Below, one piece after another: positions 17,003 to 43,454 of a stretch of DNA of 64,000 bases (positions within the stretch are counted from its first letter, which is position 1; each line of letters starts with the position of its first letter). Below the pieces are notes generated by a model. That model saw only the letters and a list, made by a program, of their open reading frames with translations. It did no database searches and was not told the origin of the DNA. The translations under genes and the position numbers were made by a program. The stretch comes from Natronococcus sp. CG52 (GTDB taxonomy: Archaea; Halobacteriota; Halobacteria; Halobacteriales; Natrialbaceae): assembly GCF_023913515.1 (NCBI RefSeq), contig NZ_CP099391.1, positions 558,001 through 622,000 on the forward strand, given 5' to 3'.

Positions 17003-17237
17003 TAGTACACTGTCGGACAGAAGTAAGTGAGACGTCGGTCGCGAAATTCCGGCCGTCACCGCTGGGGTGACGCCCGAGTTCGAGCGACCGATCTTCGAAT
17101 AGTCCTGTCCGACAGTACAACAACTGAAACGGTTTACACGCTGACCGCACTGTCCGCGGTTCTCGCTTGCTTCGCTCGCTCCGAACCGCACAGCCGTCGC
17201 GCGATCGGATGTACACTGACTTTCAGTGGCTACTATA
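17003..17237 (+). repeat. Convergent-gene repeat family 1, copy A (interrupted)
   Basis: The core at 17114-17237 runs from ACTGAAACGGTTTACACG to TTCAGTGGCTACTATA and matches copies at 38341-38462 (inverted) and 39680-39802. The left end TAGTAC appears at 17003-17008, separated from the core by the nested element. Inside is the stem GCGGTT...AACCGC (17155-17188), whose inner part is the reverse complement of the inner part of the other copies. It sits between convergent genes (DUF1328 and the HhH-like protein). Confidence 0.8.
17004..17118. mobile_element. Nested MITE-like insertion inside repeat copy A
   Basis: Perfect 12-bp inverted arms ACTGTCGGACAG (17009-17020) and CTGTCCGACAGT (17105-17116) frame about 85 bp without coding sense. 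AGTAC occurs at both borders (17004-17008 and 17114-17118), as a target duplication might. It splits the left end of the family 1 repeat, which is contiguous in the other two copies. No transposase is present. Confidence 0.5.
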
Positions 17238-34679: not shown

Positions 34680-34881
34680 AGCGACGCTGCGGTGGCGCGC
34701 GCTGTCGATCGGCTCGAGCGAAGCGAGGTGAGAGCATGCGAGCACCTCGAAAAACGAGCGGTGACCGGCAGGAACCGCGAGTACAGCGAAGCTCGATCGA
34801 CGATACCGTACGAGGGATGAGCGAACGCCGGAAGGCGTGAGCGAATCGGTTGGGGAATGCGTGGCGAATCCGTCTTGTCGG
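34680..34881 (+). repeat. Repeat family 2, copy 2
   Basis: From GCGACGCTGCGGTGGCGCGC to GGCGAATCCGTCTTGTCGG. It shares the cores CGAGGGATGAGCGAACGCC and GCGTGAGCGAATCGGTTGGG with copy 3. Longer in the middle than copy 1 (about 50 bp extra). With the AT-rich start of the RidA cassette it fills the 445-nt gap before the RidA gene; nothing else is seen there. Confidence 0.75.
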
Positions 34882-35028
34882 TCCGAATAGAACGTTTAGG
34901 TTTCCATCGGTCTCTCTCAAAAGCAAGTTTGTACGGAAGTACGTCGTCTCAAACAGATTTGAGTCAACGTTTTCAGTCCGTTACGTAGAGGGTGCAAATG
35001 GAACGACGGACAAAACGGAAGTCTACCC

Positions 35029-35061: not shown

Positions 35062-35502
35062 ATGGAAAAGATCATACTCGGCCCGGCAATGGGAGAATTG
35101 GATGACGGGAGCGATCCAGCGATGTCTATTGGCGTCGCCACTGAGTGTGCTTCAGGAATTGATGTTTCACTTCCGGGTTTAATCTATCCAGACGGGAATA
35201 CAATTGAACAGGCAAAGGGCATGTTTGAGATCATTGAAGAGATCATCGTGGACGATCTGAATGGGTGTCTTGCTGATATAACTCTTCTTCGTCTATATGT
35301 TCGTGACGACGTGTTCACGACAGAACTCCGTCAGAATCTCCACGAACTACGACATGATCTGTTTGAGTATCCGGCTTTTCCCGCAGCAACGATGGTCGGT
35401 GTCTCTCAACTCGTTCATGAGGATGCCACTATCGAGATCGAAGTAGAAGCCCTCATTCCGGAAGGGGAGTGGGATAAAACCATCATAACTCCAGAAGAGT
35501 GA
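35062..35502 (+). CDS. RidA/YjgF-family protein, AT-rich and likely acquired
   Basis: At 146 residues it has the RidA trimer-fold pattern, with LRLYVRDD and then ELRHDLFEYPAFPAATMVGV and VEALIP at the end. RidA proteins hydrolyse reactive enamine/imine intermediates; some homologues lack the catalytic Arg, and here the Arg in that area is not certain. Codon use is far more AT-rich than in the neighbours. The gene lies between family 2 repeats in opposite orientation, which marks it as an acquired cassette (inference). Confidence 0.75.
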   Translation: MEKIILGPAMGELDDGSDPAMSIGVATECASGIDVSLPGLIYPDGNTIEQAKGMFEIIEEIIVDDLNGCLADITLLRLYVRDDVFTTELRQNLHELRHDLFEYPAFPAATMVGVSQLVHEDATIEIEVEALIPEGEWDKTIITPEE

Positions 35503-35551
35503 GACTTTTATAGTCACTCTGTGCTTCACCTGTACGTAACGCGCTTACACT

Positions 35552-35705
35552 GGCAACACGGATTCGCCACGCCCTCCCCAACCGATTCGCTCACGCCTTC
35601 CGGCGTTCGCTCATCCCTCGCACAGTTTCGGACGACGGCTCGCGCCTCGCTGCGCTCGCCGTCGTCCAGCGCGCGCCACCACAACGTGGTCAGATCGGTT
35701 CGCGA
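35552..35705 (-). repeat. Repeat family 2, copy 3 (inverted)
   Basis: The reverse complement of this stretch reads from about CGAACCGATCTGACCACGTTG to TGGCGAATCCGTGTTGCC and matches copy 2 almost throughout its core. It faces copy 2 across the RidA gene and separates RidA from the convergent arcS gene. Confidence 0.75.
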
Positions 35706-38077: not shown

Positions 38078-38353
38078 ATGTCGCCACCTCCCGACCACGA
38101 CTCGGCGGGTGCGGCCGAGTCCGAGGACGCGGTCGTCGAGCGAATCGTCGAGGCGATTCGAACCGCACCACAGCCGGTCGTGAACACGCGGTACCTCGCC
38201 GGCGAGCTGGACGTCCCGGCCGAGGAACTGGTGGACCCACTCGAGTCGCTGGCCGAAACGGGACGTCTCGAACGCCTGGAGGTTCGCGATCGGGGCAGCC
38301 TCTGGCTCCTGTCGCTCGAGGAAGAACTCGAGTCCGACGGTAGTAGCCGCTGA
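38078..38353 (+). CDS. Winged-helix DNA-binding protein (91 aa)
   Basis: The sequence VVNTRYLAGELDVPAEELVD followed by ESLAETGRLERLEV is a helix-turn-helix with a wing, like small MarR/ArsR-type halophile regulators. The last residues SSR and the TGA stop are encoded by the start of family 1 repeat copy B (TAGTAGCCGCTGA). ATG 38078 is the natural start. Confidence 0.72.
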   Translation: MSPPPDHDSAGAAESEDAVVERIVEAIRTAPQPVVNTRYLAGELDVPAEELVDPLESLAETGRLERLEVRDRGSLWLLSLEEELESDGSSR

Positions 38354-38462
38354 CAGTCAGTGCACACCCGATCGAACGACGGGAGCGCGGTTCTCGCTTG
38401 CTTCGCTCGCTTCGAACCGCGGACAGTGCGATCGGCGTGGAAACCGTTTCAGTCGGTACTAG
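38341..38462 (-). repeat. Convergent-gene repeat family 1, copy B
   Basis: Near-identical (one clear mismatch at position 9, plus ends) to the reverse complement of copy C at 39680-39802. Ends are TAGTAGCC and GGTACTA(G), a rough 13-bp inverted pair. An inner stem GCGGTTC...GAACCGC (38387-38420) is present. It lies between the HTH gene and the HalOD1 gene, which converge on it. Confidence 0.85.
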
Positions 38463-38505
38463 ACGACTAACGGTACCGTTCGCGAACTGGTTCTCGGAGA
38501 ACGGC

Positions 38506-38844
38506 TTACGCGTCGGAACGGGACTCGTCGGAGGAATCACTCTCCGCTGTCGGCCCGGTCGTCGTCTCGCCAACGGTGATCGAGAGGCTGTCCTCCTGCT
38601 CGACGGTAATAGTGTGTCCCGCGTAGTCGAAGACGAATCGCCGCTCGCTCGTCGGGTCAGACGCAGGTGGATCGAAGACGCGCTCCAGCGCCTCCGGATC
38701 GACCCAGTCGTACAGCGGCGGTAGTTCGCTCGACTCGACCCCCCGACGATCTGCGACTGCCCGGACGATCGCGAGGCCGATGGTACAACGGGACCGGCCG
38801 CCCCCTGCGCTGCCGATCGAGTGAGTCACGTCCAGCACCACCAC
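38506..38844 (-). CDS. HalOD1 output-domain protein
   Basis: The 112-residue protein contains AIVRAVADRRGVESSELPPL and YDWVDPEALERVF, the HalOD1 pattern usually found at the end of haloarchaeal signalling proteins or alone as here. Tail is Ser/Asp-rich. GTG codons at the start are clustered (several GTG in a row), so the exact start is uncertain. Confidence 0.75.
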   Translation of the reverse strand: MVVLDVTHSIGSAGGGRSRCTIGLAIVRAVADRRGVESSELPPLYDWVDPEALERVFDPPASDPTSERRFVFDYAGHTITVEQEDSLSITVGETTTGPTAESDSSDESRSDA

Positions 38845-38931
38845 ACCGGTTAGTAAAAGTCCAGCGGAACGTCGGTAGCGTTGGAAAAAACGGTTCTATA
38901 CGGTTCGAAGTCCCGACCGGAATCGCTACTG

Positions 38932-39165
38932 TTACTTCTTGTGTGTGAAGAGGACCGCCTTCCCGTCCGCGGATCCCACGCACAGATCCAGTTGCTTCGA
39001 AAGGTTGAGACTCGCCGGGTTGTCTTTGCACACGACGAGGTCATCGAACTGGGCGTCACAGGCCGGGCAAGCGACTGCGACCGTATTCTGATAGCTCTTG
39101 ATCGCCTGGTTCTCCTCACGAAGCGTTAACGATGCCACGAGTTCGTCGAAGTCAGTGTCGTCCAT
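38932..39165 (-). CDS. Small CxxC protein, DUF7385-like
   Basis: The 77-residue protein has VACPACDAQFDDLVVC and a conserved C-terminal SLNLSKQLDLCVG...VLFTHKK. I recall this family as DUF7385 in haloarchaea. The CxxC plus two later Cys may bind zinc. ATG 39163-39165 preferred over a longer start. Confidence 0.72.
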   Translation of the reverse strand: MDDTDFDELVASLTLREENQAIKSYQNTVAVACPACDAQFDDLVVCKDNPASLNLSKQLDLCVGSADGKAVLFTHKK

Positions 39166-39316
39166 ACACACCCTTTCGATTCAGTACTCATAAAAACAGG
39201 CGAGAGTAGCGATTCAATCGCACTTCGGATCGTCTGCTGATCGACTGCAACAATTTCGACGGCGCCTCGAGACCCGGATCAGAACACCAAAGAGGTGGGC
39301 GACACCCAGTAGCGGT

Positions 39317-39673
39317 ATGCTCGGGGTCGCCTCGCTCGTACTCGGGGGTATCGTCGGACTGCTCTTCGTGTCGTGGCTGGTCGGCCGAATCCGTGGCGGT
39401 GGGGGCGAACAGCGGGAATCCTACCAGCGCCACAGGGACGCCCAGCAGCGCGATCCGCCGGTCGAAATCGGGGAGACCGAAACGGTCGCTATCGAGGAGT
39501 TTACGACGCATCACACGGGTGAACGCCACGCCGTCTGCAAGATCGAGGGGTTCGTCGTCTTCGTCCAGGACCTTCCCGACGACCTCGAGGCGACCGACGT
39601 GATCCGGGTCAAGATCCTCTCGTTTAACAGGGGGCACACGTCTGCGACCGCGACCTTCCTCGAGCGGCCCTGA
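39317..39673 (+). CDS. Membrane-anchored TRAM-domain protein
   Basis: Of 118 residues, the first 25 are a membrane anchor (VLGGIVGLLFVSWLVGR) and residues 45-115 fit a TRAM beta-barrel (IGETETVAIEEFTTHHTGE, then FVVFVQDLPDDLEATDVI). TRAM domains bind tRNA in modification enzymes, and in archaea stand-alone TRAM proteins act as RNA chaperones. An anchored version beside tgtA is unusual. The repeat begins 6 nt after its stop. Confidence 0.75.
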   Translation: MLGVASLVLGGIVGLLFVSWLVGRIRGGGGEQRESYQRHRDAQQRDPPVEIGETETVAIEEFTTHHTGERHAVCKIEGFVVFVQDLPDDLEATDVIRVKILSFNRGHTSATATFLERP

Positions 39674-39679
39674 TCGGTG

Positions 39680-39802
39680 TAGTACCGACTGAAACGGTTT
39701 CCACGCCGATCGCACTGTCCGCGGTTCGAAGCGAGCGAAGCAAGCGAGAACCGCGCTCCCGTCGTTCGATCGGGTGTGCACTGACTGTCAGTGGCTACTA
39801 TA
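39680..39802 (+). repeat. Convergent-gene repeat family 1, copy C
   Basis: TAGTACCGACTGAAACGGTT ... GTCAGTGGCTACTATA. Near-identical inverted copy of 38341-38462 and related to 17114-17237. Its right end (39788-39802) encodes the last residues YSSH and the stop of TgtA on the minus strand. It lies between the convergent TRAM and tgtA genes. Confidence 0.85.
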
Positions 39803-41275
39803 ACTCCCGGTCAAGTCGACCAGTTCTACCGTCTCGGGAACCCGCGCTATCACCTCGGCGGGCCACCCTCGGTGACCGAGTGCGAACTCGGTGTCGGGAT
39901 TCGTCTCGACCAGTCGGGCCACGCCGTCGGCCGCGGCCTCGAGCGCGGCGCGGTCGGTCCGAGCCGGAACCTCCGCGGTGAGCGGGTAGCTCTTCGAGAG
40001 AGCCCGCGGGAACGGCCCGAACGGCGGTTCGACTCGCCAGGAGTCGTCGTAGTCGTCTCCGCTTCCCGGACTGCCCTCCGTGAGAAAGAGCGAGTTGGGA
40101 ACGCTGAGTCGCTCGAGACGCCGGTGGTGGCGCAGCACTTCGGGCCGGCGGGCGCTCTCGGTGGAGGTGTAGAAGAACGCGCCCTTCGAGACCGGATCGG
40201 ACCGCTCGAGTTGGTCGGCGTGATCGAGCAGCGTCCGGTAGCCGTCGAGCATCGTCGGATGGGCGCGGGCGCGCTGCTCGACCAGCTCGAGCAGGTTGCC
40301 GGCGCGGATCGCCTGCTTGATGCGGCGAATCTCCTCGAAGGTCACGTGCAGGTTGTGGGCGGCGAGTTCCTTCTCGCGCTGTTTGTCCGGAAGTTCGCGG
40401 AGTTCGGCGGGGGTGTTGGCGGTACAGACCGGACACGAACACGGCAGGTAGTCGAGGTCGTCGAGGTGGCGCGTGCCTCGAACCGTCAGGTAGCGATCGT
40501 CGCGAGCGTAGAGCGCGTACGCGGCCGAGTCGAACAGGTCACAGCCCATCGCGACCGCGAGCGCGAACATCATCGGGTGGCCGGCGCCGAAGAGGTGAAC
40601 GGGCGCGTCCGCGCTGAGCCCGCGCTTGGCGCCGGCGACGGCGTCGATCATGTCGGCGTAGCGGTAGTCGTTCATCAGCGGGACGACCGCACCGACCGGG
40701 AAGACGTCGAGGTCCGTCCCCTGGGCGTGGCGGCCAGCCTCCTCGCGGAGATCGGGGTAAGTCGATCCCTGAACGGGGGCGTTGACGAGCATCTCCCCAG
40801 TGTCGACGGTCTCGGCGGCCTCGAGGCGTTCCTGGGTGGTATCGAGTTCGCGTTCGGCCTGCTCGCGGGAGGCGTCCGGCGGCGTCGGGATGTCGACCGG
40901 CGTCCCGATGTCGGAGCCGATCGCGTGCTGGAACTCGAGGATTTCCTCGGTGGTGACGTCGATCTCGCCGTACTCCGCGAGCTGGAAGGAGCCGGAGTCG
41001 GTCATGATCGCGCCGGGGAAATCGAGCAGTTCGTGGAGCCCGTCCTCGAGGGCGGCCTCGCGGACGTCGTCGGTTCCGTAGATGATATACGAGTTCGTAA
41101 TGAGAATCTCGGCGCCGAACTCCTCGGCGAGCCGTCGGGGGCTGATCGTATCCAGATTGGGGTTGATCACCGGCAGGAGCGCCGGCGTCTCGACGGTTAC
41201 GTCGGCACGTGGGACGGTGAGTTCACCGATTCGGCCGCCCGCGTCGGTATCTCGGAGTTCGAAGCACTCGCGCAT
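39788..41275 (-). CDS. tgtA: tRNA-guanine(15) transglycosylase TgtA
   Basis: The 495-residue enzyme exchanges guanine-15 of tRNA for preQ0, the first step of archaeosine synthesis. The nucleophile motif is TDSGSFQL (Asp93), zinc is held by CSCPVC (Cys279, Cys281, Cys284) and a His near 307-310. The start ATG 41273-41275 (MRECFEL) is the family start; the reading frame extends further upstream without family support. Its last four codons and stop lie within the 123-bp family 1 repeat, so its natural C-terminus was probably replaced or set by the repeat. Confidence 0.93.
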
Positions 41276-42275: not shown

Positions 42276-43454
42276 ATGGTTTCACTATCGAAGAAACTCG
42301 GTGTCGTTTTCGTCGCGCTGTTAGTTGCGCTTTCGGGGGGTCCCGCCCTCGCTGGAGCGACGGCAACGACAGCTGCGGACGATACTGGCACCGAAGACGT
42401 GAGCGTCACACTCGAGAACGTCCAGGTCGAGTCCCTCGAACTCGACAACGTCACGGTCGAGAACGCGACGATCGAGGAGTTGGCCGTCGACGAACTCGAG
42501 GTCCAGGGCGGCGAGCAGCTGCAAGAGGAACTGAACGTGACCGAGGACAACGAGACCGAGGGCGACCAGCAGGAGAACGAGACGGGCGACAACCAGACCG
42601 AGACGATGGAGGACGTGACGATCTCCGACGCCTCCTTCGAATCGCTGTCACTCGAGAACGTCTCGATCGACGACCTCGAGACGAACGGTCAGGCCGATGC
42701 CAACGAAACCGACACCACCGATGCGGCCGAAGACGAACCCGCAACTGAAGACGGTCAGCTGATCGAAGAGGATACGGAGAGCGTGACGGTCCAGAACCTG
42801 ACGATCGAGTCGATGAACGTCGAGCAGATGTCGATCGAGCAACTCTCCGTCCAAGAGGACGAAGGCGGCATCCTCGAGGGTATCTCCGACTTCGTCGGCG
42901 GCCTGTTCGGCGACGAAGAGGACGGCGAAACCGCGGACAACGAGACCGCCGGTCAGAATGCCACGACCCAGGAGTTCGAAGAGTTGACCGTCGAGCAGTT
43001 CGACGTCCAGGAGATCACCATCGAGTCGGTGACCGTCCAGTCCCTCCAGAGTCAGGAAGACCAGGCAGATAACGAGACCGCGGAGGACAACGAGACTGCC
43101 CAAGACAACGAGACTGCGGAGGACAACGAGACCGCCGAAAACGGCGAGGCGGCGACGACCGAAACGGTGCCGTCCCTCTCCGCATCGTCGATGGAGATCG
43201 ACAACGTCTCCGCGAACACCATCACCGTCGGCGAGACGCAGGGTCTCGAGGAAACGACGATGGAGGACAACGAGACGGCGACGGACAACGAGACGGCGAC
43301 GGACAACGAGACGGCGACGGACAACGAGACGGCGACGGACAACGAGACCGAGACCGACGGCGAGAACGAAACCGGCAGCGCCGAAGGCGACGATGATGAG
43401 GACGACGAGGCCACCGAGACCGAAAACGAGTCGTCCCTGGCCCCTCCGAACTGA
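42276..43454 (+). CDS. Secreted acidic beta-repeat protein rich in N-glycosylation sequons
   Basis: The 392-residue protein has a Sec signal peptide (KKLGVVFVALLVALSGGPALA, cut near residue 26). The mature part is made of about 10-residue beta-type repeats such as VTVENATIEELAV and LSLENVSIDDLET, which suggests a beta-solenoid, separated by Asp/Glu-rich linkers with many NET/NVT sequons. Two blocks of 18-bp tandem repeats encode NETAED and NETATD units. No C-terminal sorting signal. A surface or extracellular structural role is an inference. TATA-like element about 30 nt upstream. Confidence 0.8.
   Translation: MVSLSKKLGVVFVALLVALSGGPALAGATATTAADDTGTEDVSVTLENVQVESLELDNVTVENATIEELAVDELEVQGGEQLQEELNVTEDNETEGDQQENETGDNQTETMEDVTISDASFESLSLENVSIDDLETNGQADANETDTTDAAEDEPATEDGQLIEEDTESVTVQNLTIESMNVEQMSIEQLSVQEDEGGILEGISDFVGGLFGDEEDGETADNETAGQNATTQEFEELTVEQFDVQEITIESVTVQSLQSQEDQADNETAEDNETAQDNETAEDNETAENGEAATTETVPSLSASSMEIDNVSANTITVGETQGLEETTMEDNETATDNETATDNETATDNETATDNETETDGENETGSAEGDDDEDDEATETENESSLAPPN
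43068..43139 (+). repeat. 18-bp tandem repeat, 4 units, inside CDS
   Basis: Units of GA[C/T]AACGAGAC[C/T]GC followed by variable codons (43068, 43086, 43104, 43122) encode NETA(E/Q)D. Confidence 0.85.
43266..43337 (+). repeat. 18-bp tandem repeat, 4 exact units, inside CDS
   Basis: Four identical GACAACGAGACGGCGACG units (43266, 43284, 43302, 43320) and a diverged fifth encode DNETAT. Exact identity points to recent slippage, so copy number should vary between strains. Confidence 0.9.

Follow-up and report, generated by a model that had tools for sequence, protein, structure and literature searches.

A short TA-targeting repeat that supplies replacement stop codons to genes struck at their ends in a Natronococcus genome

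Several described families of short mobile repeats come close to the element considered here. In Streptococcus pneumoniae, RUP is a MITE of ~107 bp, present in ~108 copies and proposed to be moved by IS630-Spn1 (PMC2229807). QMITE1 and QMITE2 of Coxiella burnetii are reported to hit functional annotated genes only at their 3' ends, with little change in protein length (PMC5896051). Among the RU-1/ERIC repeats of enterobacteria, an RU-1 insertion removed the normal stop codon of a gene, and the protein thereby gained a new C-terminal end (PMC2759123). Closer in terms of host, the MITEs and small mobile repeats of Haloquadratum walsbyi are short, transposase-free and present in many copies, in a genome in which CTAG is avoided (PMC3119063).

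The repeat that we analyzed, in a 64,000-nt stretch of Natronococcus sp. CG52 DNA (the window) and across the rest of its genome, shares features with each of these. Like RUP, it has TA at its ends and as its target, and its ends resemble those of an IS630 element; RUP is unrelated in sequence and host, is described as bearing stops in all six frames, and is not described as replacing host-gene stops in the portions of the source used here (PMC2229807). The QMITEs parallel it in their 3'-end hits but differ in sequence, QMITE2 having direct repeats of 7-9 bp, and an in-frame replacement stop in both ends does not feature in the portions of that report drawn upon (PMC5896051). RU-1/ERIC also duplicates TA, but belongs to a different family and added a tail of ~34 residues rather than four (PMC2759123). 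The Haloquadratum walsbyi families, although likewise haloarchaeal, are tied to other transposons, and the text describing them does not mention IS630 (PMC3119063). A literature search, with most subscription journals outside its coverage, found no published description of the present repeat.

The window holds three copies of the repeat, two of which frame a short segment between an HTH-like gene and tgtA:

17115..17235, minus strand: copy A, diverged, with an exact left-end match and a decayed right end; no predicted gene ends inside it
38078..38353, plus strand: HTH-like gene, 91 aa, with its final SSR and stop from copy B
38341..38461, plus strand: copy B, a 121-nt MITE that begins TAGTAGCCGCTGA; nt 11-13 of its left end (TGA, 38351-38353) form the stop of the HTH-like gene
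38462..39679: segment between copies B and C, inverted relative to the sister species G004 and G008
38506..38844, minus strand: HalOD1-domain gene, within the inverted segment
38932..39171, minus strand: DUF7385 gene, within the inverted segment
39317..39673, plus strand: TRAM-like gene, within the inverted segment (sub-threshold Pfam match, E 0.0085)
39680..39800, minus strand: copy C, a 121-nt MITE that begins TAGTAGCCACTGA; nt 11-13 of its left end (39790-39788) form the tgtA stop
39788..41275, minus strand: tgtA, archaeosine tRNA-guanine transglycosylase (TIGR00432, 641.6 bits)

The preliminary description held that copy B codes SSR and a stop for the HTH-like gene and that copy C codes YSSH and a stop for TgtA, and both statements are borne out. 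The open reading frame at 38078-38353 ends GAC GGT AGT AGC CGC TGA (DGSSR); copy B contributes its first T as the last base of the GGT codon, and SSR with its stop is thus encoded by the repeat itself. The HTH-like protein has no match in Pfam or NCBIfam. In the relatives G001, G005, G006 and G007 the gene ends in EELGE, its TGA overlapping the stop of a convergent TRAM-like gene (TGATCA). The end falls inside a repeat copy in G008 (EELGTYSSH), G004 (SSDTH) and the window (DGSSR), and the insertion thus predates the three species.

The end of tgtA has a different and more recent history. It reads AGT TAT AGT AGC CAC TGA (SYSSH), with the stop at 39788-39790; SSH and the stop come from copy C, while the Y codon consists of the target TA plus the first T of the repeat. 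The TA next to the repeat, at 39801-39802, represents half of the duplicated target. TgtA of G008 lacks the repeat and ends in GSRD before TAA, and the right-hand flank of copy C in the window still holds GACGACTAACGG, which places the insertion within TAC, the codon for Y in an ancestral GSYD end; the site was TTAC and not CTAG. Comparison with G008 thus indicates that GSYD became GSYSSH by a recent insertion two codons before the old stop. In neither window protein is the repeat-made C-terminus shared by the orthologues without the repeat (TgtA in G008; the HTH-like protein in G006 and G007). In G004, TgtA ends in ESYD before TAG and a decayed repeat begins at that stop, apparently marking a separate insertion; a single insertion shared with the window is less likely, since GACTAA is retained on the right of the repeat in the window and TACGAC on its left in G004. 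At 80 other haloarchaeal loci TgtA has variable tails and no repeat at the gene end.

Copies B and C lie in inverted orientation and are identical at 120 of 121 positions; among the other copies of that length, the best match to B is at 116. Compared with G008 and G004, the segment between B and C has the opposite orientation in its HalOD1 region as well as its TRAM-like gene, and the TRAM-like gene is likewise reversed with respect to G001, G005, G006 and G007; every relative compared for this segment thus has it the other way round. The gene that tgtA faces in G008 and G004 is the HalOD1 gene, and in relatives the HTH-like and TRAM-like genes converge. Homologous recombination between the two inverted copies would be the simplest cause of this inversion. 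Elsewhere in the window, an unrelated inverted repeat pair (34801-34882 and 35549-35630; 82 nt, 90% alike) surrounds an open reading frame (35062-35502), a layout that resembles the B-C arrangement with a different repeat family. The gene at 42399-43454 contains a repeat of 18-nt period (43032-43400) that codes for D-N-E-T-A units.

We gathered copies of the repeat by pattern and by region. Its left end is matched 91 times genome-wide at up to three mismatches (43 forward, 48 reverse), the reversed-pattern control giving none, and 88 distinct copies remain once three left ends are dropped as duplicates from overlapping contig ends. These duplicates lie in G000 at C1:21846/3958139, C2:4995/362255 and C2:11732/368992; the ends of C1 and C2 repeat each other (as do those of C3, going by a tgt-like match), as expected for unclosed circular contigs. 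There are two main size classes, 80 nt (23 copies) and 121 nt (34 copies), the longer distinguished by an extra central hairpin, and both carry imperfect terminal inverted repeats of 13 nt, the left TAGTAGCCACTGA and the right, read inward, TAGTACCAACTGA. TA stands on both sides in 46 of the 83 bounded copies; as only about half thus keep it, many sites have to be read through decay. Half of these sites (23/46) are CTAG, which points to TA as the target with a preference for CTAG. An empty site corresponding to the insertion at an arginase-like gene is present in G008. On its size, copy number, lack of a transposase gene, terminal inverted repeats and target duplication, we class the repeat as a non-autonomous MITE. 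A DNA search with the consensus finds matches in 112 of 125 genomes of the family and full-length matches in a few dozen, the weak matches probably reflecting the shared central palindrome alone. An Rfam search of the region gave no match above threshold.

How genes end in the repeat follows from its reading frames. Where the target TA supplies codon positions 1-2, the left end reads TAT AGT AGC CRC TGA (the YSSH type) and the right end TAT AGT ACC AAC TGA (YSTN), so that in either orientation a stop follows four added residues. Where TA supplies positions 2-3, the repeat's own TAG terminates translation immediately. No stop interrupts the third frame of the 121-nt repeat in either orientation, nor that of either consensus sequence. 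Among the flanking genes of the 88 copies, whose ends were called with a predictor written and trained here on the fetched sequence rather than taken from curated annotation, 11 end at nt 13 (five through the left end and six through the right, with the tails YSSH, SSR, YSTN and STD), five end at nt 3, and none enters in the open third frame.

For eight of the 11 genes ending at nt 13, the insertion point coincides exactly with the stop of the orthologue in relatives (G003, G004, G006, G007 or G008), which places these insertions on the old stop codon by alignment. A Gfo/Idh-like oxidoreductase that ends in DL in five relatives ends here in DLYSTD. The arginase-like protein, ending in KRIL in G008, G003, G006 and G007, ends here in KRILDSTN, and its far flank, TAGctcgcgac, is the G008 sequence after KRIL. 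The other six loci are 1553144R, 46877R, 2298629R, 68669L, 3240760R and 3755304L; taken as a set, their old ends in relatives are VPAT, TY, QPS, PPGN, RRS and VVW. The remaining three cases are the two window genes and C1:2065906, the last an EF-1A gene fragment with no true gene end. Of the genes ending at nt 3 (C1:2043115 left out), two are of the same length as in G008, one loses one residue and one loses about three. At the aminotransferase gene (C1:46877), insertions lie three bases apart in G006 and G000, with closer relatives lacking the repeat, and are apparently independent.

The preliminary description had noted that the same repeat end closes two unrelated proteins in one frame, which applies to both copies and extends genome-wide. 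With regard to the window alone, the common frame could be a matter of chance: a gene entering in two of the three frames is bound to end at nt 3 or at nt 13, the left end by itself forces a stop in two frames, and two genes out of two in one frame is unsurprising. Against this, the genome-wide distribution of 11:5:0 departs from equal thirds (exact p = 0.0012) and orthologues place the insertions on stop codons, a position that dictates the frame; coincidence is therefore improbable. The first of two accounts offered earlier was that the element inserts at stop codons. A dedicated mechanism by which the MITE seeks out stop codons or translation-termination regions would explain why eight of the 11 cases fall exactly on the old stop, and why apparently separate insertions occur a few bases apart in sister or related species at tgtA and at the aminotransferase gene. 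However, most copies lie away from any stop, and the preference for CTAG combined with the loss of intragenic hits already predicts stop hits. CTAG is avoided in the window (27 observed against 64 expected), with 15 occurrences intergenic, three at stops and eight within the 49 kb of coding sequence; it is scarce in genes yet found at NNC-TAG stops. When TA sites are weighted by the observed target preference and only tolerated sites are considered, stops are expected to make up 12.9% in the window or 5.6% across all fetched segments, against an observed 9.6% (8/83 confirmed) or 12.5% (11/88 in all). Only 11/88 set against the lowest rate of 5.6% exceeds expectation, a mild excess (P = 0.01). 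As the share of stop hits falls inside the range expected from target preference or just over it, dedicated targeting is unneeded, and we regard it as very improbable. Insertion at stop codons thus survives as a description of eight of the 11 cases, with no need for special targeting, and does not describe tgtA.

The second account was that copies are kept for a terminator-like stop, the hairpin acting as a transcription terminator or 3'-end signal for incoming genes. The whole repeat is indeed an imperfect palindrome, the consensus sequences folding at -43 and -58 kcal/mol, and of the 77 copies that could be classified 25 occupy convergent gaps, as did both window copies before the inversion. 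Yet 37 of the 77 occupy tandem gaps and 15 divergent ones, and copy B folds barely better than shuffled sequence on the plus strand (z -0.86; -2.53 on the other). The T-run that follows the hairpin of an intrinsic terminator is absent from both the copy and the consensus. Retention for such a role is accordingly hard to credit, and this part of the earlier proposal is not sustained.

As for the source of mobility, the haloarchaeal IS630-family elements (PF13358) of the genus and class are mostly 1055 bp, begin with TAGTARNCRTTAGAA (TAGTARNC) at both ends and sit between cta and tag. IS630 prefers CTAG as its target. The MITE ends match these ends at nt 1-11 and 14-15 and differ at nt 12-13 (GA in the MITE, AG in IS630). 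Both have an in-frame stop at the same codon, TGA in the former and TAG in the latter. Unlike the MITE, the IS630 elements carry a transposase, and their inner sequence is different. The common first end bases, target and in-frame stop make IS630 the likely transposase source, and IS630-family transposases very probably move the MITE. A search of the PF13358 elements of the genus and class turned up no autonomous element whose ends are identical to those of the MITE; one IS630 copy (L289, 1365-2501) is a 1055-bp element nested within a MITE copy of 80 nt and so is not the autonomous partner. Selection on the transposon itself may also have kept the in-frame stop that both ends carry at nt 11-13, although we hold this to be rather unlikely. 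Since CTAG survives at stops and seldom in genes, an end that restores the stop would make such hits nearly harmless, and IS630 and the MITE retain a stop at the same codon despite the two differing bases.

The reading that we favor, with a probability of about 0.87, is that of a non-autonomous MITE, very probably moved by IS630-family transposases and inserted at TA with a preference for CTAG, whose surviving hits at gene ends acquire a replacement stop; this accounts for both window genes and for the inversion. The MITE would enter at TA, with CTAG favored, and duplicate the TA. Hits within genes would mostly be lost, presumably through purifying selection, and since coding CTAG is rare, the surviving copies would be intergenic or sit at the ends of genes, TAG and TAA stops among them. 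If TA makes up positions 1-2 of a stop codon, translation would run on to the repeat's in-frame stop, adding four residues; if it makes up positions 2-3 of a codon, the repeat's TAG would end translation directly. In the window, the HTH end would be ancestral to three species and the tgtA end the product of the recent hit, with later recombination between B and C flipping the 1.2-kb segment.

Stop replacement is a fairly ordinary effect of a known type of element, here unusually clear. The gene-by-gene evidence from orthologues shows a small mobile element rewriting the C-termini of proteins with hardly any penalty, and the flipped 1.2-kb segment offers a clear instance of gene order reshaped by MITE copies. 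For annotation, YSSH and YSTN tails before the stop in these archaea should be treated with caution as transposon-made. If the stop in the ends was indeed selected, this would be a transposon adapted to landing on stop codons.
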